Below, one piece after another: positions 16,550 through 54,060 of a stretch of 64,000 bases of DNA (the stretch's first letter is position 1; each line of letters opens with the position of its first letter). The translations under genes and the position numbers were made by a program. Origin of the DNA: Enchytraeus crypticus (Eukaryota; Annelida; Clitellata; Enchytraeida; Enchytraeidae); the NCBI GenBank assembly GCA_905160935.1, contig CAJHZI010000191.1:730501-794500 (forward strand), written 5' to 3'. The notes below the pieces were generated by a model, which was not told where the DNA came from, ran no database searches, and worked only from the letters and a program-made list of their open reading frames with translations.

Positions 16550-17890
16550 TGTATCCGATTGAGGACTTTCCTCTCAAAATTATGATGTCTTTCAATTTCT
16601 ATTTATCTTTTATTTTATCATTTCCGTGCTTCAAGTTTTGACCTATTCATTACTTTAGCGTTTTAACCCTATTTTTGGTAGATTGTCTACTATATCATGT
16701 GTTGAACAATTTAAAGTATTTACTACATTGTATTAATGTAGTCTAATTGGTATATTCAATACATTATTATTTATAGATCAGTTTCTGAGTTGACACCCAC
16801 AAGACACGAGTAAAAGTATTGCTCAAGTGATGAGTCTGTCGTATATAATTATATTTAAGAATTAAAAAATACGCAACTACAGAATTTTAAAAATAAGCAC
16901 GGCATGAATATTTTCTCTAACAGATGCTATTACAAAGTTAACAGTCACTTAGACTGCCAGCCTTTTTGAGCAGGTGCTGTTCTTTAATAAATTTAATTTT
17001 AATTTTGAAAGAAAATTAGTACTGGCTAATCATTCAGTCAATTAAATTAAGACAAAGGGAATCATCAGAACAGTATTTCACGAGAACGAAAAGAGAATTA
17101 AATCAGAATTATAACATTCCTGTGCATTTTGGAGATATTAATTGCTTGAGTGTTGAACATCACAAAACTATTAGCGCTGTATTAGTTATAACTAGAGAAA
17201 AACTGGAATCGACATTTTTATATTCTGTCTATCAATTGATTTGAACTAAGATAGATTGATTAATGATCAATAGTAATCAATGATTAGTTCGATGTATCGA
17301 TGTCACCAACATCGCTTTAGAGTGAGGAAACTGACGTTAACATTAGCTTTTTTAATTTGCGCAGGAGTACTATAATTTATATGTTTTCGTATATTTCATA
17401 TGTAATTGTACTCCCAATAATTATAATTATCTGCAGCCGTTTGGCAACACACAAGATTTCTCAATTTCAGCAAACAACCGAATGTGATCAATACTATGTA
17501 ACTCTGCTGAAAACGGTGTTTTTTTCCCCCATCTGTAAAATCGTGTATTTAAAATCTGTAGCTACCAGCGTATTCATCGCTCCAAATACATAAATATTTA
17601 GGCAACTGTCAGTATTAATACTTGTAGTGATAGATAGGCGGCGAGGTATGTGATAGTGCCAGACTTGTGCTTTCATCATCACAGAACCTATCAGAGAGTA
17701 GATGGGAAACTGAGCATATCACCAGTTCTTGTCAGCACGAGATTAAGCGCTAAGAAATCAGTTATAATTTATTCATCTAGATGAATTCAATAGAATTTCT
17801 TATATATTGAGCGTAACTGAGCCACCTCTCACACTAGTTCCCCTCATTAATACACCAGATCAATACAAGAACAAAACACAAAAGTTCACA
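16550..17890. other. Convergent intergenic spacer (Rubicon / RPL13A 3' ends)
   Basis: AT-rich, no coding signal beyond small spurious frames; only the SINE A fragment at 17297 is recognised. Confidence 0.6.
17297..17354 (+). mobile_element. SINE family A, 3' fragment
   Basis: GATGTCACCAACATCGCTTT then GAGTGAGGAAACTGACGTTA and ACATTAGC; the tRNA-like head is missing. Confidence 0.7.
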
Positions 17891-17903
17891 CAAGACGCAT
17901 ATA

Positions 17904-17909
17904 TTTATT
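17904..17909 (-). promoter_or_regulatory. Polyadenylation signal AATAAA (RPL13A)
   Basis: Minus-strand AATAAA about 160 bp after the RPL13A stop codon. Confidence 0.6.
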
Positions 17910-18067
17910 TCCACTAAAGCAACCGTGTAACCACCACTGCTAAAGCTAATCCAGTATCCATAGGTTTGTCTACAGAATTGTTTCAATACATCAAATGTAT
18001 GCAGCATTGAATTATGTCAGTCCTGTGCTTGGTGAATAACAGAGGTTGCTGTTAGCGGGACAACTGT

Positions 18068-18420
18068 TCAATGATGGCCCAAACTTTCTATGATCTTCTG
18101 GTACGGAGCCGTCTTCTTCTCTACGTTCTTCTTGGCAGTGGCCATCAGTTTGTTTCTCTGCACTTTCTGCTTGTAGTAGGCAGACGACTTAAGCTTGCGT
18201 CGTTTCTCCAGCGTGGCAACGACAGTCTGGTACTTCCACCCGACCTCGTGAGAGATGCGACTGAGCTGACAGTACTTGCGGCGAGGCTTCAGTCGCAGGA
18301 TACGCAGAGCCGAGGGGCAGACAACGCGCTTCTGCTTGTCGTATGGGGGCGGGATTCCCTCGAACACCTTCAGGCGTTCCATAGCGTCCTTGCCACGGTA
18401 CAGCTTGTGCGGCAACATCC
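18068..18420 (-). CDS. RPL13A: RPL13A exon 5 (C-terminal 116 codons)
   Basis: Acceptor GTGCAG/GGATG. Encodes [37 protein letters not shown] and [12 protein letters not shown], then a Lys-rich helix ending ESLGHH. The junction restores the family sequence VRG-MLPHK. Confidence 0.95.
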
Positions 18421-21400
18421 CTGCACATCAACAGACAAAGTAGTTATATATTAGATAGTGAAACCAGTTCAAGACAAGAGACTAAAGCCACGTTTGGCAG
18501 CTGTTTCTTGTCTCAAAAGCATGGTAATGGTACAGGAGGCACTATACGGATGTTAATTAAAGAATAACTTAACACTTATAATTTAACTCTGACACCCATT
18601 ATAACGATATGCATAGACCCATTACATTAACATGTAAATATACCTATCAGATGTCGACATAAACAAACCAGTTTAACATGCAACAAAATATGTTTTCAAT
18701 TATCGAACTGATCTATTAACAGACATAAAATGAAATAAAATAATTCAACAGTGAATCTCAGTTGGTGATGCATGAACTTTTTGTCATCAACTGTTTTTAT
18801 GAAAGATAAGTGATTTCTCATCATTGATTCACGGTCCTAATTAGAGTAATAACAAGGTAATAACAATGTACTGAATAGACAATTCAACACAATAGTAGTA
18901 AGTTATGTCCAAACAAACAAGCACTGCAGAGAAATGTCATCAGTTCTCACAAAACAAAGTGCAGATCACGGCAACCATCATCACAGTCTAGCCACAATGG
19001 TGTTATTATCAGCTTTTTAATACCATTTTTTTTACCACTGTTAGTATTTCTACTATATGTAAGAGAAACAGAGACCAATACCATATAGATTTTAGGAATT
19101 TTCTGTAATTGGAAAGTGCTTTTGCAAAATTTTGCCTCCAACAATGTACAGTATAACATAGACCACTCTCCAATCGATAGAGGACAGAGGATTGGATTAA
19201 GAATCCAGCGATACCGAATCTGACATCAAAATTTGAGCTAGACCACTTTCATTCTCACTGGCTTATTTCAAAATTTTCTATTTACAAAATCTTACGTTCG
19301 CATAAAGACCACAAAAGAACTACAAACAAAAAGCAGATTTTAGAAAACGCCACTTACAATGATCTCACATCCTGACATTTACAAATTAATACCTTTACTT
19401 ACATTAAAGAAACCAATTAAAGAAAATTAGGTGAATCTCAGCTGGTGATGCATGAACTTTTTGTCAGCAACAAATATTCTGAGCTATAAGTGATTCATCA
19501 TCATCGATTCACCTCAGTCAGTCAAGAGTAGGGTAGTATCAACTGAATTTATCTTAGTAATTGGCATATAGTACAAAAGTATGTACAAATCTACAAGACT
19601 GCATAGCACGTTAACAATTTAAATTAAAGGCAATTCAGTACAATTTGGCAGGATGAAATTTAAGCGTCAAATTTGAACTTAAACTCTTTAGTTCAACGCA
19701 GTGTGCAGTAGAGTTTTAGCTCTAAGGTATTGCTCTTGAGCTAATTTAGGGGGGAAAATTCATATTATGCATACACAGCACCAGTTATTTGGTTCAAGCG
19801 GTACACAAGGATCACAAACATAACCATTTCTGACAGTGAATAATAGGAACATGCCTCAGTTATGTCTCAATTATCATATTTAATCAGATGAGTAAGGAAT
19901 TTGACGAACAGTTCTGCTCATCCTTGGCATGCCAGAATCACATATAGCCAAGACATGACGTCACTATAAGCATGCTTGTGCAGCTATTCTAAACTCTAGT
20001 TTAAATAACTTAATGCCCTTATTTAAACTATTGTAGGAAATAGAATATCATCAAATTAATATTTGCAATACAACAAATACTTAGTGCTACCTTCTCAGAA
20101 TATGAAAAATCAAATATGTTTGCCGAAATTTCAAATACATTTTAATTACTGTATATACAATAGACCACATCAACCTAAATCAGAATAAAAAACATGCAAT
20201 TTCATTTTTAAAACCCAGTCATTCTTAATCTGATGATAGTAACATGTTTTAGGTTCTATCTTCACACAATGATGAAGTTGTGTAATTGGTATGTATCATC
20301 AGGTGGAAGATTCGTGAGAATTGGACATTAAGAAAGAGGTCCCCTCTGAACCCATACCCACCCAATGCCTAACCAGCTCCTCATACCCTATCACCACGAC
20401 AAAGGGACCAGATATTGGAGCCAGCTAGATGCTCTGCTTCACTAGTGCACAGTCAATACAGACATAACCAGGACGAGCAACTATACGGACACGTTATCAC
20501 GTCCTACAGCAGTCAACTGTATGACCCTGTAGTGCATGAAGCAACTCTGATATGATATTGTATTGTACTTAAGCAAATCAAAATTCATATAGGCAATTTA
20601 GACAAAAAAATCATTACACAAAACGGTCAATCAACCAATACTGGTCCTAAAACAATGCCCCCATATCTAGTTTAATACATTAACAGCCCCTCTAGACCCT
20701 TGAGTTATTTAGACACTTGATATGGACAAATGGATTTATATAATTTATAAATAATGAAAAACTTTCTTGATAATAATATGTGTAATTGAAAATCTCCAAT
20801 ATACAAACTGTAAAACGAAATATTAATAAAAGGTTGTCAAAGTTTCAGATCCTAATCTACATAATACCCTAACTATAAACACATTCTTACTTTCCTTTAA
20901 CAATATTGACAATAAAGGTATGACCTCTGATCCTCAACCAAGGATGCTGGGTAAACCGATAATAGTGTATCATCAGGTGGAAGATTTGTGAGAATTGGAC
21001 ATTAAGAAAGAGGTCCCCTCTGAACCTATACCCACCCGGTGCCTAACCAGCTCCTCATACCCTATCACCACGACAAAGGGACCAGATACTGGAGCCAGCT
21101 AGATGCTCTGCTTCACTAGTGCACAGTCAATACAGACATAACCAGGACGAGCAACTATACGGACACGTTATCACGTCCTATAGAGGTTAACTGTATGACC
21201 CTGTAGTGCATGAAGCAACTCTGAAACAGTATTTTCACAATTCCTCAACATCAATAGTTTTAAGAAAACCTTTAACTTACAATAATGTGACGTGCTCTAT
21301 ACAATATTCAGCTAACTACTAATCTTAATGAGCTGTCTAACTACTACGTTGCTATATAAATATCTCACTACAACTTTGCTATATAAATGTCTAACTACAA

Positions 21401-24400
21401 CATTGCTATATAAATGTCTCACTACAACTTTGCTATATAAATGTCTAACTACAACATTGCTATATGAATGTCTCACTACAACTTTGCTATATAAATGTCT
21501 AACTACAACTTTGCTATATAAATGTCTAACTACAACATTGCTATATAAATGTCTCACTACAACTTTGCTATATATATATATATCTCACTAAAAACGTTGC
21601 TATATAAATGTCTCACTACAACTTTGCTATATATATATATCTCACTAAAAACGTTGCTATATAAATGTCTCACTACAACTTTGCTATATAAATGTCTAAC
21701 TACAACATTGCTATATAAATGTCTCACTACAACTTTGCTATATAAATGTCTCACTACAACTTTGCTATATAAATGTCTAACTACAACATTGCTATATAAA
21801 TGTCTCACTACAACTTTGCTATATAAATGTCTAACTACAACATTGCTATATGAATGTCTCACTACAACTTTACTATATAAATGTCTAACTACAACTTTGC
21901 TATATAAATGTCTAACTACAACATTGCTATATAAATGTCTCACTACAACTTTGCTATATATATATATATATCTCACTAAAAACGTTGCTATATAAATGTC
22001 TCACTACAACTTTGCTATATATATATATCTCACTAAAAACGTTGCTATATAAATGTCTCACTACAACTTTGCTATATATCTGCTATATAAATGTATCACA
22101 ACTAAGTTGCTATATAAAGATATCTGATGTGGGGCTTACAAGACTAAGTGACTAGGACTATGGGATTCTGATTTAGAAAAATATCAGTTTTCGTAAGAAA
22201 AGATGGCATAGAATGTGGTGGACCCAGAGGACGGTCCTGAGAGATAGAGAGCTCTCAGCTCCAAAGACAGTCCAACGTTCTCTCTCCCTACACAGACTGC
22301 CAGCTACAAGCACTTACAGGCTTGCACGAGTTCATCCAGCAGGATAGACACAAGCACTGACAGGCTTGCACTGAGTTCATCCAGTAGGATAGGCAATCAG
22401 ATAACAATTACCTCAAAACTAGAACTATGGCATTTTAATGGGCAATTAAAGTAAAAATATAGTTAAAATAAATAGCAAAATCCAAGTAGAGTTTGCTATC
22501 AAAACAAACTGAAGTAGTAGAAAATAGAATATCTTACAGTGGCTAAATTTACAACCATAAAAACTCACGAGAATATGACAAATGCCTAAACCTTCATAAT
22601 TAGACAGAAATGTCCCATGACATTGATAAGTATGACTCTAGTACAAAAAAGAAATACAGAGCACAAGTAAAACTAAGACAACTGTGAAGTTTATTGTAGT
22701 GAAAAAATCTTAATTCAGTAAATACTAACAACTAAACAATATAGTCAAACGTTATGCATAAAGTGAGACTTCAGCTATTGATAAGAACTGTTTACTAGTT
22801 TATCTTCAATTGTTCTTAAGAGCGCTGTGATTTTCATCATCATTGTTTCACATAATGCAAAAAATACGAATATTAAAACATCTGAAAATAATATCTGTTA
22901 CGTTATTCACTAGAGACAGCTTCTTCCGATGGTATAAGAAACATATCTATTCGCTGTATTCCATGATATTTGAAACAATACAATATTTTACAGCTAGAAA
23001 GACAAATCAAATAACTGTTCAACACAATACACCTATATCACTGCAGTAAGTAGAGCCTTGAAAAAACATAATGACCCTTTATACCCAACAAGAACATTAC
23101 ATTATAGAAGAGATAATGGCCGTCATTTATACAACACAATTATACAACACAGTTAGTGGCAGTCAATTACACAATTTTTCACTTATACACAAGGTAATAA
23201 TTCTGAGTGATAGATTCAAGCTTGCCTCATATACAGAATAATACAACGCTAGTAACAAATAAGTTCATGCACGTGAGATCTCAGTTATGATATGAACTGT
23301 TTCTGGTTTATCTTCAACTTTTATTAGGAGCGCTGTGATTTTCATCATCATAGATTCACAATATGCAATGACACTTTATTTGGAACATTTCAACTTATTT
23401 AATATAACAATCAAGATATATAGAACTTTTGTGATAAAAAATCTAAGCATACAGCATCAACAAAGCAATGTCTTGGCTGGATCATATGCAATGCCCACAA
23501 AAAAAAACCAATAAAACATCAGCTCGCATCAGATGTGTAACAAAAAATGTCAAAATCTTTTTTTAAAAACAATAGAAATGTTGCCATTTCACAGTTTTGG
23601 CTATATTTTAGTAATATTTTTCTAAAGGCCGTTTGTAGAAACGTTATACAAATTACATCAACTTTAAAACGCTATTTACATGCGCACTGAACAAAACTTC
23701 AAGCATAACCTCTTTAATGCAAATATATTACATACATCGTATCAAAGTATAAAATGATTCCACCATGGCCCCACGTAACTAAATTTATGAAATCAGAGGC
23801 AAACAAACACTGCAACATAAAATTGTTTCAGTAACTAAAGCTGAACCTCACTTGCATGAAATGTTTGTAATCATATATAGTTCCAACTTTAGAGCAGGTA
23901 TTCCCATCTTAGATTCAAAAGATTTGCACATATACCACATATAATTAATTATTTCAGAACTACAGCACAACTAACCAATGAACCAGTAACCAAACACATT
24001 ATTTTGTAACATTTAACCCATGCCAAAAATATGCCAGAGTATTGTTAGACTTTCCATACCATTCAAGTCACAATTAAAATTGTTCTTCAATGGAACAAAT
24101 CGAAGAGAAAGAGCAGAGCACAAACCTCTGACAGTCCTCCAGAAGATCTTGCTGGGGGCTCTGAAGTGGAACGGTCCATGGCTTGGATTAGTGTTATGAC
24201 GCTTCTTCAGGAAATCCAAATACTTCACTATAGCAATTTCAATCAACAGTCAATGCATTTATTAGGTCTATTCTACACAAATTATATAGATTGGAAGATC
24301 TTTTACATTCACGAAAATTACAATGACACTATATATACATTATGCATAGAACGACGTGTTAATGGACATACAGGCCCGAAGGCTCAGATACATGATAATT

Positions 24401-27400
24401 CCAGAATAGACTAAAGTGTTACATTAAAGACAGTGTTACAAAAATATCGGAATATCACAAGACGTAGAATCTCAGTTGATGGTGCATGTTTTGTCAGCAA
24501 CATTAATTATGTGCGCAAGTGATTTGTCATCATCATAGATTCACTACTTGCAATTAATTGCTCTATAATACGCAACAAAAATGTATATAAGCTTAGATTT
24601 AATTTTTAAGGTTTAGAAATTAACTACATTATCATAAACAAATATCCACAGTGAGACTAATTTTTAAGTAAATTAATTGGGCCTACAATACAAAAATTAT
24701 ACAATTTAAAGCAGCTCATTTTAATATATCCTCGATAACTAAGGTAATCGAGGAGACTGACGTCAACATTAGCTTTACCAGCTAGTTAAATTAATGGCAG
24801 TAATGTTACAATAGAAAAAATTATTTCGAATCTCACTATTAAAGGCCTGAGCACTTTAAAAAGCATGACAATGTGTCAAATCGCAACAATGTTTAGCTTA
24901 TAAGAAAAATGCCAATTCCGTTAAATCTTATCATAGTACTATTTATTTAAAAACAAAGATACTATTATTTAGCAGATAATAATTGAAGGTGTCAAAATAC
25001 TCAGTGCATAACTAAACACACGTTCGGTGCTTCAGAAACATGAACAAGTCATTTACTAGTATCATGCAATGTAGGTAAGTAAAATTCATCATCATCAGCA
25101 CCAAAACAACAATATAGCCAAGCGGCAATGAGGCCTCAAAGTCATCATATACTCTAAACTTTAGTCTAAAGGCAACTTATTTTCTTGCCTTGCTCATGCA
25201 AGAAAGTCCTCCTTATAAAACAGAATAATGAACATACAACACAGAAATAAGAATATTCCTTACAAGTAAGAGCACATCATTCAAAGCCTTGTTTGTCTTC
25301 CAATTATACCAGCTAGTGAAAGTAGGTAGCATACACTACTAATATCCAAACTCAGCCATACTACCTCTAAAAGAACACGTACAGAAAAGAAAAACATAAA
25401 TTTGTTTTTAAATAACGAAGTAAATTTTTTAATGTACGTATTTTTAACATTTAACTTACGCTTGTTTCGATAGAAGTTTCCAGAAATGTTGATTCCCTCA
25501 CACCTGAGAACGACTACTCGCTGCCCTGAAACATTGACGACACACAAAAATTGAACACTCAAAAATTATTCAATATCTTAAACCATTAAATATAACTAAA
25601 TCTAAAGTCGCAACGTTATGATTCGCTACAAAAATTTACAAAATAAAATAATTAGCTAAACACTATTCCTTCTAAACACTATAAATTGCAGCAACTATTC
25701 TAAAGTCAAGTTTTATGTTCCTTCAATGTAGCTTAGGAAATCAACCACCAAAAAGTAGCGGTTTACTAGATGGCTCAACAACGTATAATAAACTAAATTA
25801 GCATCTGCCAAGGCACCAGCAATTGAAATTACTACATACCTTGCAGGAGTGTCTTGGCCACAATGGCGGCCAATCGGCCAAGTAGATGACCTCTAGCATC
25901 AATCAACAGCGGCTACAAAATATAAATTAAGTTTAGTTAGTAAGGTATATTAGGGTCTAGATAAAAGAATGTATGGCATACATCAGGCATTAATACTGTA
26001 ACTCACAAAGCGTCTCAGATCATACTTTCTCATTTCACAGAAATTACTCAATGTAGGTAAGGTATATGGAATCATCATAGACGCAGATGGGAGGAAATGC
26101 ATATTCCTAAAATGTATGCTCCTAAATGAAGATGAGATAACATTTTCACACTCCTAATATAGACAAGTTTAACATCAGTTTTATGAAGCTACTGCATTTG
26201 AACCCTGCTCCTACTGATCTACAGTCGATTACCTGATTATGCCATGCGCTCGGCCTTTGGTACGGTTGTTACTAACAATACTTACATAGTTACTAACAAA
26301 TAGCATTCTCAGAATACAGAACAATGATCACCTAAAAAACATATCTCAAAGCTATCCTAACAACAAAATATGTGTATTTAACATGAAAATATTGGTGGAT
26401 TATATGCAAGGATCAGAAGGAAAAATAATTATATAAATCAAGTATGCCTCAGAATTTATACTTTTTCTATCAAAACTTGAATGTGTTCAAACAATGTAGG
26501 TAAAACAAACATCATCGGCATACAACAACTTATATTTACGAGTGTCTTGATTGCCTAGGGATAACGTCATGAAGTTTTAAATGACAGATCCTGAGGTGAA
26601 TTGAACCCTCGTGGGTTCGAATCTCAGAGTAAAATCTCGGACATTCACTGGACTGGTTATACGGAAAATGGTCTAAATAGAATACCGGTTTAAACATGTG
26701 GTATTAAAAAGTGATAGATATCAACATAGTTGATCATATCACTATAATGAGTGTTTACTTTACTTTTATTTAAGTCACAAGACACCTCTACTGTTGTCAA
26801 GTATATCTTCCTTATTGTCACATCACATTTAAGTGATTTTAATACAATCCCAGTTGTACATTATATTTTTTTAATGAATTCTTAAAATTTTTGGATTTCT
26901 ATAATCTTCATCACTATCCCTAACATTTGAGTGAAAATGTGTAGCACAAATATCTACAACATAGCAGACGTTGTCTCTTTCTTAATCACGCCCTACCGAA
27001 TTTGTAGCCACGGAGTGTACACAATTTTACTAGTAGGCCGGAAGTTTAAGGTACTTTTTGGTTAATCCAAAATTTCAATCCTTACTTTAAAATATAAATT
27101 CCTAAAGTCATGATGTTCGAAAGGACGCTCAAATGGTAGCTTAATCTTACAGTAACTTATTAGAAATTATCCATGCCTTAATACACGCCTTAATTTTCGC
27201 AGTAAAATCAACTCAACTCCGTTTGTGCATAATACAATAAACACCACAGTGAACTCGACACCATCCAAAGTGAAAGTTTCAATCGAATTTAATCCAATTT
27301 TGAATATACTTTTACATATAATATGAATAAATATCACTAAGCTGCATTAACATTCACTTAATATCTAAAATGCTATACTATATTTTATTTTACATTGTGG

Positions 27401-27638
27401 ATTTATAATGATAAAAATAAACAAAAATGTTTACCCATCGAACAGTACCTCTACGTCAACACATGCCTATCAAAATTTAGAAAAAAAATCAATTCTTGCA
27501 ACATTATTTGCGCATTATATGATCTCTGCTAACTAATTTACAGTATATTAATTTAAATAACGTGATATATCAGCCAAACTCCTAACTGGAAATTAAATAT
27601 TCAGAAAATTCTCCACCAACCTTCCTCTGAAAGCCCAT
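18068..27638 (-). CDS. RPL13A: Ribosomal protein L13a (uL13), complete, 5 exons
   Basis: Joined on the minus strand: 27621-27638 (ATG), 25840-25912, 25460-25525, 24126-24227, 18068-18420 (TGA). All borders are GT/AG and phases agree. Assembled length is 203 residues, the same as the human protein. Role: large-subunit ribosomal protein; the family's mammalian members also act in translational control. Seen: [68 protein letters not shown] and [20 protein letters not shown], all signature blocks. The short first exon (MGFQRK) has a pyrimidine 5'TOP-like leader. Introns 1, 3 and 4 host snoRNAs, as in vertebrate RPL13A. The C-terminal 60 residues diverge most. Intron 4 is 5.7 kb, long for a ribosomal protein gene. 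Confidence 0.95.
18751..18832 (-). ncRNA. Box C/D snoRNA, SNORD32/33-like (copy 1)
   Basis: In RPL13A intron 4. Terminal stem GTGAATC/GATTCAC, box C ATGATGA (18818-18824), box D CTGA (18758-18761), internal C'-like TTGATGA (18784-18790). The sequence before box D (CATGCATCACCAA) pairs, with one G-U, with the 18S rRNA stretch UGGUGGUGCAUG targeted by the RPL13A-hosted vertebrate SNORD32/33. The pairing is from memory of 18S. Confidence 0.8.
19431..19512 (-). ncRNA. Box C/D snoRNA, SNORD32/33-like (copy 2)
   Basis: Paralogue of the 18751 RNA: same GTGAATC/GATTCAC stem, box C ATGATGA (19498-19504), box D CTGA (19438-19441), the same D-box guide (CATGCATCACCAG) and a conserved AAAAAGTTCATGCAT block. 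The region behind box C has diverged. Intron 4. Confidence 0.8.
20289..20550 (-). ncRNA. Structured element, copy 1: possible H/ACA-like RNA
   Basis: Intron 4 of RPL13A. 258 bp nearly identical to 20967-21224. Minus-strand reading: a 5' arm with TTGCTTCATGCAC pairing GTGCA..TGAAGCA, then AGAGCA (fits box H, ANANNA), then a second arm with GGTCCC/GGGACC and GCTCC/GGAGC, ending GATGATACA plus three non-shared bases (fits ACA-NNN). About 260 nt is long for an H/ACA RNA. Alternatives: a SINE or another duplicated structured repeat. Confidence 0.45.
20963..21224 (-). ncRNA. Structured element, copy 2: possible H/ACA-like RNA
   Basis: Second 258-bp copy, 674 bp from the first and in the same orientation. 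Identity stops just after the ACA triplet at one end and at CTGA at the other. A few substitutions separate the copies, and the paired arms are retained. Confidence 0.45.
21320..22110. repeat. 27-bp minisatellite in RPL13A intron 4
   Basis: About 29 copies of CTAACTACAACATTGCTATATAAATGT with alternating variants (ACAACTTTG versus ACAACATTG) and inserted TATATATA units. It creates long open frames on both strands that are not genes. Confidence 0.95.
22180..22400. other. GC-richer intronic block with a 44-bp direct duplication
   Basis: Contains two 44-bp copies beginning ACAAGCACT[TG]ACAGGCTTGCA (near 22306 and 22350), each able to form a CAAGC/GCTTG hairpin, plus an inverted GCTGAGAG/CTCTCAG motif. 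It stands out from the AT-rich intron of RPL13A. Function unknown; it may be a further structured RNA or old repeat. Confidence 0.4.
22763..22851 (-). ncRNA. Box C/D snoRNA, unassigned (paralogue pair, member 1)
   Basis: Intron 4. Short stem GTGA/TCAC, box C ATGATGA (22834-22843), box D CTGA (22771-22774). Shares AAAATCACAGCGCTC and TTGAAGATAAAC blocks with the RNA at 23273. The rRNA target was not recognised. Confidence 0.72.
23273..23359 (-). ncRNA. Box C/D snoRNA, unassigned (paralogue pair, member 2)
   Basis: Intron 4. Box C ATGATGA (23342-23351), box D CTGA (23281-23284), terminal GTGA/TCAC stem. Conserved blocks identical to member 1; the spacer between them differs. Confidence 0.72.
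24126..24227 (-). CDS. RPL13A: RPL13A exon 4
   Basis: Encodes [20 protein letters not shown] then [13 protein letters not shown]. Acceptor GCTATAG, donor CAGAG/GTTTGT. The split Leu codon joins FYRNK to KYLDF. Confidence 0.93.
24464..24547 (-). ncRNA. Box C/D snoRNA, SNORD32/33-like (copy 3)
   Basis: In intron 3. Stem GTAGAATC with GATTCACTAC, box C ATGATGA (near 24527-24536), box D CTGA (24472-24475). Guide CATGCACCATCAA pairs perfectly over UGGUGCAUG with 18S rRNA. It shares the GACAAAA and AAATCACTT blocks with copies 1 and 2. Confidence 0.8.
24728..24782 (+). mobile_element. SINE family A, 3' fragment
   Basis: GAGGAGACTGACGTCAACAT then TAGCTTTACCAGC, inside RPL13A intron 3. Confidence 0.65.
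25026..25102 (-). ncRNA. Box C/D snoRNA, SNORD34-like (copy 1)
   Basis: Intron 3. Stem GGTGC/GCACC, box C in TGATGATGATGA, box D CTGA (25032-25035). Contains TTACCTACATTG, the SNORD34 guide that is antisense to the LSU rRNA stretch CAAUGUAGGUAA. Vertebrate SNORD34 also lies in RPL13A. Confidence 0.83.
25460..25525 (-). CDS. RPL13A: RPL13A exon 3
   Basis: 21 complete codons [21 protein letters not shown] between acceptor TTTCAG and donor AAGC/GTAAGT. Very conserved block. Confidence 0.93.
25840..25912 (-). CDS. RPL13A: RPL13A exon 2
   Basis: Encodes [20 protein letters not shown] then TLLQ. Acceptor TTGTAG, donor CAAG/GTATGT. Confidence 0.92.
26010..26084 (-). ncRNA. Box C/D snoRNA, SNORD34-like (copy 2)
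   Basis: Intron 1. Perfect terminal stem GCGTCT/AGACGC, box C ATGATGA (26072-26078), box D CTGA (26015-26018), guide CCTTACCTACATTGAG, complementary to CAAUGUAGGUAAGG of LSU rRNA. Confidence 0.87.
26442..26523 (-). ncRNA. Box C/D snoRNA, SNORD34-like (copy 3)
   Basis: Intron 1. Perfect stem GTATGCC/GGCATAC, box D CTGA (26449-26452), guide TTACCTACATTG. Box C is degenerate (ATGATGT), so this copy may be weaker or decaying. Confidence 0.72.
26545..26795 (+). mobile_element. tRNA-derived SINE, family D
   Basis: GGGATAACGTCATGAAGTTT, GACAGATCCTGAGGTGAATT, B-box GTGGGTTCGAATCTC, then a conserved body (GTGATAGATATCAACATAGT). Four copies in the window. Inside RPL13A intron 1. Confidence 0.82.
27621..27638 (-). 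CDS. RPL13A: RPL13A exon 1 coding part
   Basis: ATG GGC TTT CAG AGG AAG followed by donor GTTGGT. Phase 0 joins PLLIDARGH. Six-codon first exon, directly behind a 5'TOP-like leader. Confidence 0.8.
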
Positions 27639-27670
27639 CTTGTCGGTGTTGTTTTGTAAAAGAGACCGGA
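27639..27670 (-). promoter_or_regulatory. 5'TOP-like leader and likely start site of RPL13A
   Basis: On the minus strand the leader reads GGTCTCTTTTACAAAACAAC before the ATG. A start at the C of CTCTTTT (about 27664) would give a 26-nt 5'UTR beginning with a pyrimidine tract, the mark of ribosomal-protein mRNAs under mTOR-dependent translational control. The start site is inferred. Confidence 0.6.
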
Positions 27671-28635
27671 AACGGAAATAGCTCTGCCATTATACATTGA
27701 CAGCGTTAACAAGTCAAAAACTTTCTCAGTAATAATAGATCTTTGGAGGAATGTAATCATTTATTTCTTAAATGGATCTTTTTTACATAACAGCAGACTG
27801 GGTCAGAATGGAAAGGATACATTTGAAAACCCATTTACTTAATTAACACTTTAGCATTTTCCAGTTAAAGACTAATTCAAAACAATTGCTTAACTAACAC
27901 AATACAGACATGTAGTAGACTACGACGCATTTTTGTATTAATCTATATTAAAAGCATAATGCACATTGAAATCTATATACAGTTTTATAACATTTTCACT
28001 AGATCATTCGTTGCAAAAAAGAAATTTTTGTAAATCAAGTGAAATTGGTAAATAGACTCCTTTCATTTGTAATATGGTGATAACTTTCTGACAATATTAA
28101 AATGCCCCAATAATCCGTCCTCTGATCGGCCATGACACTGCTTTATAAGTTTTCGTTGTTAATAATAGCTAAAATGTCAAAATCTACGAGACTTAAAATT
28201 ATCAGTTAGCAGAATTTACAGGGAGGATCTACAGTGTTCTTAAACGCTGCAGTGTTTTGTTGATCACTAGGCTGAATTCTGCTACGACTGTTGTTGATAT
28301 TCGCAATTCTGCCATTGAATAGCGTTACTGCAGCAACTATCTTCTGTCGAAAGAGTACCAAGCTAGCTGCATGTTGTAACAGCTTCGTTTTCAATAGAAT
28401 ATTTTATTAATGCTAATAATTTTAAGCACTTTGCTGGCTTTTTTTGTTAATTTATGGCCAGAATGCATCACAGTGAGAAAGTTATATCGTTGTAAACAAT
28501 CAAAATTTAAATAGCGATATGTGTAGTATGGTTTTAATTAAACTTGCAAAAACTCTGAGATTTGGCAAGCCTAATTCTTACTTATCTGCAATTTTTCTTT
28601 CCTAGGGTCCCTCACGTGTTCTACGTTCTACTGAA

Positions 28636-52854: not shown

Positions 52855-54060
52855 TTAAAATTCTCTCTTAGTGCACTGCCTATTGGCAGGTCCATGGTCA
52901 TAACGCCTCCACTCTTCTCTGTCTTCCGCCTTTCTCTTCATTTCCACATATGAGTGGGTCTTTAAATCATCTAACATACCTAATCTCGGCCTGCCCCTGC
53001 CTGTTTTTCCTTCCATTCTACCTTCTATGACCACTTTTAATAGACCTTCCCCCCTTAGAATGTGTCCTATCCATCTCTTCTTTCTATTTCTTAATACATT
53101 TACCAACTGTCTATCTGTGCCAACTCTCTCCAGGACTTCCTCATTTGTAACCTCTTGGGTCCAGCAAATCCTCTCCATTCTTCTCCAAATCCACATTTCC
53201 AATGCTTCCAGTTTCCTAATATTTTCCTTCCTTAAGGTCCATGTTTCACATCCATACAATAGCGTGGTCCAAACCAAAGTTTTCACTATCTTTCTCTTTG
53301 TGTCTTTCTTTAGACTTTTTGTTAATAGTTCTTTTCTACTACCAAATGCCGCTTTTGCTTGTGCAATCCTACTGCATATTTCCGTCTCACACTTCCTGTC
53401 ATCGGTTATAGTATGACCCAAATATTTGAAACTCCTTACCTGTTCCAATTTCTTACCATTTATTGTGATATTAACTTCACCTTTAATATTGGACACTCGC
53501 ATAGCCTTGGTCTTTTTTGTATTAATATTCATGCTATATCTCAATGCCGTATCATTCAGCCTATCCATTATCTTCTGCAATCCAATCTCGCTGCCTGCTA
53601 CCATTCCTTGGTCATCTGCAAATCGTACATCTTGTAACAAATTCCCTCCTACTTTTATTCCTTCTTCCATGTCTTCCATGGCTTCATCCATCATTGCCTT
53701 AGCGTAAATGTTAAATAGCAGCGGCGAAATGCTAAAACCTTATCTTACTCCACGTCCTATTTCACCTTCTCCTGAGTATTCTTGTTGGATATTGATTACT
53801 GCTTTTTGATTCATGTACAAGTTCAGAATTACTCTTTTATCTCTCCAGTCAATTCCTATTCTTTTCAAGATATTCATCATCATTATCCAATCAATCCTGT
53901 CAAAGGCCTTCTCGAAGTCTACAAAGCATACAAAAACGTCATTTCCATATTCTAAGCTTCTTTCGCAAAGAACCCGCATTACCCCTATTGCTTCTCTTGT
54001 GCCACATCCTTTCCTAAAACCAAATTGTGTCTTGCTCAGTATCATTTCTGCTTTCGACTG
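52855..54060 (-). pseudogene. Non-LTR retrotransposon reverse transcriptase, 5'-truncated, one in-frame stop
   Basis: Minus-strand frame with KTQFGFRKGCGTREAI, CFVDFEKAFDRIDW, FADDQGM (usually Y/FADD), FKYLGHTITDD, LLYGCETWTLRKENIRKLEA and RKKRWIGHILRG, blocks of a LINE reverse transcriptase and its C-terminal region. A TAA at about 53729 sits where the family has GVRQG; either side is in the same frame, so a single nonsense change separates two open parts. Upstream endonuclease parts are absent. The 3' end carries GGCAGTGCACTAAGA. Confidence 0.92.

Follow-up and report, generated by a model that had tools for sequence, protein, structure and literature searches.

Predicted box C/D small nucleolar RNAs in the introns of the RPL13A gene of Enchytraeus crypticus

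The introns of the ribosomal protein gene RPL13A in the annelid Enchytraeus crypticus contain a series of short, partly similar units that resemble box C/D small nucleolar RNAs (snoRNAs). This locus raises the question of what the units are, which RNAs they might guide methylation of, and how several copies came to lie in a single host gene. A reading of the letters of the DNA without database searches, here called the sequence-only reading, had proposed at least eight such units within positions 18421-27620, a span bounded by the end of intron 4 and the start of intron 1 of the gene. We analysed this proposal in its window, the whole 64,000-nucleotide (nt) stretch of contig CAJHZI010000191.1 (positions 730,501 to 794,500, forward strand), which is part of a genome assembly of 524 Mb in 802 contigs. 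The eight units are very probably ordinary intron-encoded box C/D snoRNAs, predicted methylation guides that are hosted by RPL13A, and most likely they direct methylation of ribosomal RNA (rRNA). Apart from the copy number and two units for which no target was found, the locus appears ordinary; what is new are additional members of known snoRNA families, present in several copies.

Eight box C/D units and their host gene

The units were sought with a scan for NTGATG followed, 55-84 nt on, by CTGA, with a terminal stem score of at least 12. Within the window, all seven minus-strand matches lie in RPL13A introns (7/7), and the single match on the plus strand lies outside them. The same scan on 1000 dinucleotide shuffles of 18421-27620, a span that includes exons 2-4, returned a mean of 0.073 matches and a maximum of 2. 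Lowering the stem score to 8 added two minus-strand matches outside the introns, one of which spans the exon 5 splice site. An eighth unit, designated E, has both boxes but a bulged stem and was missed by the scan; we count it because 76 of 87 positions are identical to those of its neighbour, unit F. The eight minus-strand intronic units of the sequence-only reading are thereby recovered, seven by the scan and E by likeness. Its description of terminal stems with boxes at the expected spacing applies to seven of the eight, the bulged stem of unit E being the exception. All eight units are in the sense orientation of RPL13A. Two are found in intron 1, two in intron 3 and four in intron 4, in agreement with the proposal that several introns hold more than one snoRNA, and no box C/D unit was found in intron 2.

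Searches with Rfam models assigned six of the units to two known families. At the cut-offs of the models (38 bits for SNORD34, RF00147; 44 bits for SNORD33), the whole window gave a single match, SNORD34 at 26442-26523 with 48.8 bits. This is unit A (26442..26523, intron 1). A search at relaxed thresholds, covering 17500-28500 (11 kb), recovered further SNORD34 matches at 26008-26086 (35.1 bits) and 25025-25103 (32.5 bits), which correspond to the SNORD34-like units B (26010..26083, intron 1) and C (25025..25105, intron 3). SNORD33 matches were recovered at 18752-18831 (41.9 bits), 19432-19511 (37.4 bits) and 24466-24543 (32.7 bits), corresponding to units H (18751..18832, intron 4), G (19430..19513, intron 4) and D (24463..24545, intron 3). 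All five additional matches fall below the family cut-offs, with expectation values of 6e-5 to 0.011 in the 11 kb. Since all three SNORD33 scores are below 44 bits, we refer to units D, G and H as SNORD33-like.

The remaining two units, E (23271..23360) and F (22764..22852), both in intron 4, are box C/D-like and had no Rfam match up to an expectation value of 5 in the relaxed search, which also gave no match to SNORD32A or SNORD35A. Unit E was recognised by its likeness to F and D and is treated as a diverged relative of D, G and H; unit F, its pair, was found by the scan and by its likeness to E. The proposed copy numbers of 3+3+2 are right. No further units emerged in the window from two models, R1 and R2, which below an expectation value of 0.1 found only the units from which they had been built; the consensus structure of R1 misses the terminal stem, so this model works mostly by sequence.

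The host gene, RPL13A (uL13), is encoded on the minus strand in five exons. A splice model with GT-AG introns yields a stop-free frame of 203 amino acids, and residues 1-202 of the predicted protein align with uL13 from a solved ribosome structure (chain 9eho_O; expectation value 6.7e-88). Coding exon 1, from the ATG, is placed at 27621..27638 by the splice model and the uL13 alignment, and the splice model places exon 2 at 25840..25912, exon 3 at 25460..25525, exon 4 at 24126..24227 and coding exon 5, to the TGA, at 18068..18420. The introns between them are intron 1 (25913-27620, 1708 nt), intron 2 (25526-25839, 314 nt), intron 3 (24228-25459, 1232 nt) and intron 4 (18421-24125, 5705 nt). 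The Pfam model Ribosomal_L13 matched the frame of exon 5 alone only weakly (21.6 bits, cut-off 23.8).

Guides and predicted rRNA targets

Box C/D RNAs direct 2'-O-methylation of rRNA, and those encoded in introns are released when exonucleases trim the spliced intron down to the terminal stem. The RPL13A units would likewise be trimmed from the spliced introns of their host down to their terminal stems.

The SNORD33-like units share a guide that can be compared with the 18S rRNA of the organism itself. When CATGCAYCAYCANCTGA was searched for in the 64 kb with up to two mismatches, three matches were found, all exact and all within units D, G and H; shuffled sequences gave a mean of 0.23, and three matches were reached in 0 of 100 shuffles. 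The own 18S rRNA was taken from a 5000-base contig, with 1640 known bases within the 1843 taken as 18S. The guides next to box D in units D, G and H pair with TGGTGGTGCATGG of this rRNA over 12-13 bases (11 Watson-Crick and 1-2 G-U pairs), and the paired stretch stops one base short of box D. In each of the three units, the U in UGG[U]GGUGCAUG lies opposite the fifth base upstream of box D. Shuffled guides paired equally well with the own 18S in 0, 0 and 3 of 200 cases for D, G and H, respectively, and the target stretch also occurs in the eukaryotic 18S rRNA consensus of Rfam.

The complementarity to the organism's own rRNA on which the sequence-only reading had staked its claim is thus present for the 18S. 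The same reading had attributed three 18S guides to SNORD32/33, and only the second half of that label holds. In the register of SNORD32, the base faced would be an 18S G (Gm1328) that lies two bases 3' of the uridine of SNORD33. A SNORD32 identity is rejected for D, G and H, as the fifth base before box D faces a U; because this is the same U in all three, the label should read SNORD33. U33 is listed with Um1326 in the accessible portion of PMC3511168, and we infer that the 18S U faced by these units is the human Um1326 of SNORD33. Units D, G and H would guide its methylation in the own 18S rRNA.

Two additional pairings were considered for these units and set aside. The first, an accessory pairing, would join the D' half of unit D to 18S sequence lying downstream of the guide site; it is unbroken on a foreign 18S from an IMG/VR contig, but on the own 18S it contains a mismatch and is equalled by 106 of 200 shuffles. 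Two IMG/VR contigs filed as viral contain pieces of eukaryotic 18S rRNA. For the second, a D' pairing that G and H have in common near position 344 of the own 18S, 103 and 37 of 200 shuffles did as well; the same place is also reached by units B and C.

The SNORD34-type units carry a different guide. A search for TTACCTACATTG in the 64 kb with up to one mismatch gave three matches, all exact and all inside units A, B and C (shuffle mean 0.53; three matches reached in 1 of 100 shuffles), and this identical 12-nt guide lies in the D' half of each unit. The three SNORD34 guides of the sequence-only reading are thus supported indirectly, by the guide in 3/3 units and by the Rfam cut-off in 1/3. 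Units A, B and C do not pair significantly with the own 18S (133-199 of 200 shuffles equally good), as expected for a 28S guide. Judging from their family membership, they may use the D' guide TTACCTACATTG to direct methylation at the SNORD34 site in 28S rRNA, which we take to be human Um2824. The predicted 28S stretch would be CAATGTAGGTAA, and the predicted methylated base the U in CAA[U]GUAGGUAA.

Several observations weigh against these assignments. Five of the six units recognised by Rfam score below the family cut-off, and two units have no match. The contig that provides the own 18S is gappy and looks noisy. Units D, G and H possess a rival 13-base pairing with the own rRNA-encoding DNA that runs into box D, and G and H a rival 13-base pairing with the spacer that follows the 18S; we set the first aside because box D is protein-bound, and the second because the spacer is not a usual target. 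The boxes D' of A, B and C appear degenerate by eye. Outside the 12-nt guide, the scores among these three units are 33-36, compared with 37 for the cross-family pair B-D, and since their mutual scores are no higher than that of the best cross pair, the case for their kinship depends on the shared guide and the Rfam matches. Finally, a eukaryotic 28S fragment, from NZ_QBKZ01000001.1, reads CAATGTAGGCAA at the site, with one mismatch to the SNORD34 guide. That eukaryotic piece sits in a bacterial contig filed as Mangrovicoccus ximenensis, probably as a result of contamination or misassembly.

Divergence, duplication and surroundings of the units

Local alignment scores place units D, E, F, G and H in one line, with scores of 44-120 among themselves and 14-37 against A-C. 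Comparison of the flanks of all units (28 pairs, both sides, 120 nt) gave scores that did not surpass the best of 50 shuffles in 55 of 56 cases. Only G and H exceeded it, in their 5' flanks (39 versus 32), and a repeat search extended the likeness by a few bases on the immediate 5' side of D, E and F. The likeness appears to be essentially confined to the units, as would be expected of old duplications with scrambled surroundings, and the copies probably descend from such duplications within RPL13A.

Units E and F are probably members of the D/G/H line that have lost the guide of that line. Unit E is identical to D at 64 of 81 positions. The guide search of the window did not find the CATGCA guide in E or F; a version of it that looks shortened by eye lies next to box D in both. 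We take E and F to be related to the SNORD33-like units but diverged from them, presumably either decaying or re-targeted; the sequence-only reading does not mention this relationship. There is some chance, which we hold to be limited, that only some of the eight units are working snoRNAs and that the rest, E and F in particular, are decaying copies that have persisted by chance. The bulged terminal stem of E and its absence from the scan are consistent with decay, as are the absence of the CATGCA guide from E and F, the lack of significant pairing with the own 18S (none of the four guide halves of E and F beats shuffles, with 73-193 of 200 equally good), the five units below the Rfam cut-offs and the two that match no family. 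Against this, boxes C and D are retained in E and F, and a run of 19 nt, GATGAAAATCACAGCGCTC, is unchanged between them, which at an identity of 76/87 is suggestive only. We favour the interpretation of all eight as ordinary box C/D snoRNAs.

A more specific proposal for E and F, which we consider unlikely, is that this duplicated branch of the SNORD33 line dropped its 18S guide and gained a new shared guide, AAAATCACAGCGCTC, before a weak box D', with which it would direct methylation at an unusual site or in a non-ribosomal RNA. If true, duplication within a single host gene would have provided a guide RNA with a new target. The pair offers a small test case for the change or loss of target in duplicated guides.

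A repeat of ~180-200 bp lies directly 3' of unit H, at 18541-18745, and has 39 other scored matches in the genome. This dispersed repeat shows that the RPL13A introns do take insertions, and is compatible with the view that the units are mobile-element copies that carried snoRNA sequence into the gene and were not kept for function. We regard this as very improbable, given that the repeat match stops short of H in 7 of the 7 other copies examined, so that the repeat is unsupported as a carrier of the snoRNA, and that all eight units are in RPL13A sense. In addition, a genome-wide SNORD34 search, with 68 of 89349 candidates scored, gave one match at an expectation value of 0.001 or less, the locus of unit A; with this number scored and units B and C unreported, the search leaves room for further diverged copies. 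Ordinary intron-encoded snoRNAs duplicated within their host gene therefore remain our preferred interpretation.

Intron 4 contains several other features. A candidate box H/ACA snoRNA, SNORA57-like and likewise absent from the sequence-only reading, was identified on the minus strand at 22211..22343, with a score below the Rfam cut-off (31.3 bits, cut-off 40) and an expectation value of 3e-4 in 11 kb and 6e-5 in 2.3 kb. Its minimum-energy fold has two hairpin domains with AGAGAA between them and ACA near the end; the energy of this fold is unremarkable (z = -0.34, 74 of 200 shuffles equally good). H/ACA RNAs are reported in sponge RPL13A introns (PMC3412847). Two tandem copies of ~44 bp at 22306-22392 overlap the 5' end of this candidate, as if part of it had been duplicated. 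Two 268-nt blocks at 20292-20559 and 20966-21233 are 95% identical. An H/ACA reading was considered for them: the first, with margins and read on the gene strand, folds better than its shuffles (z = -2.48, 1 of 200), but neither block contains an Rfam match. A tandem array of ~27 copies of a 27-bp unit occupies 21334-22078. Elsewhere in the window, a reverse-transcriptase frame on the minus strand at 52855-53739 (Pfam RVT_1, expectation value 1.8e-10) represents a piece of a retroelement.

Comparison with known systems

Units A, B and C share with SNORD34 (RF00147) the box C/D anatomy, the TTACCTACATTG guide in the D' half and the host, RPL13A, as in mammals; they differ in being present as three copies, in introns 1 and 3, two of which score below the family cut-off. 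Similarly, units D, G and H have the box C/D anatomy of SNORD33, a guide at box D directed to the 18S uridine presumed to be Um1326, and RPL13A as host, as in mammals, whereas here there are three copies, all below the cut-off, and two relatives, E and F, without the guide.

Mammalian Rpl13a encodes U32A, U33, U34 and U35A, according to the available part of PMC6629867, so that the SNORD33 and SNORD34 guides lie in the same host gene in both systems. Unlike the mammalian set, the units described here include no match to SNORD32A or SNORD35A, and the guides are multiplied. Because mammalian Rpl13a hosts the same guides, the linkage of SNORD33 and SNORD34 to RPL13A may be ancient, as the sequence-only reading had suggested together with a possibly lineage-specific copy number. 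Other reports bear on this possibility. The accessible main text of a chicken study (PMC2653536) makes no mention of RPL13A, U33 or U34 and gives the chicken counterparts of U32 and U35 in KPNB1 and RPS11, placements that, as far as that text goes, speak against a fixed linkage to RPL13A. A survey of 44 eukaryote genomes argues that the positions of snoRNAs in their hosts are unstable over deep time (PMC3511168, in the part available). Searching the available parts of PMC3349704 and PMC10234308 for RPL13A and these guides gave no result. We noticed no paper on the copy number of C/D snoRNAs in invertebrate RPL13A in our literature search, and make no claim that none exists.

Duplicates of a snoRNA in the introns of one gene are a described and common mode, according to the accessible text on chicken (PMC2653536). 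There, intragenic (cis) duplication has likewise left paralogues in neighbouring introns, with the guide kept and the body diverged; the organism is a different one, and the units described here are predictions from sequence. The present locus adds a genome with SNORD33-like and SNORD34-like guides in RPL13A, as in mammals. Linkage across such distant animals, if shown, would be a useful counter-example to the drifting of snoRNA positions between hosts.

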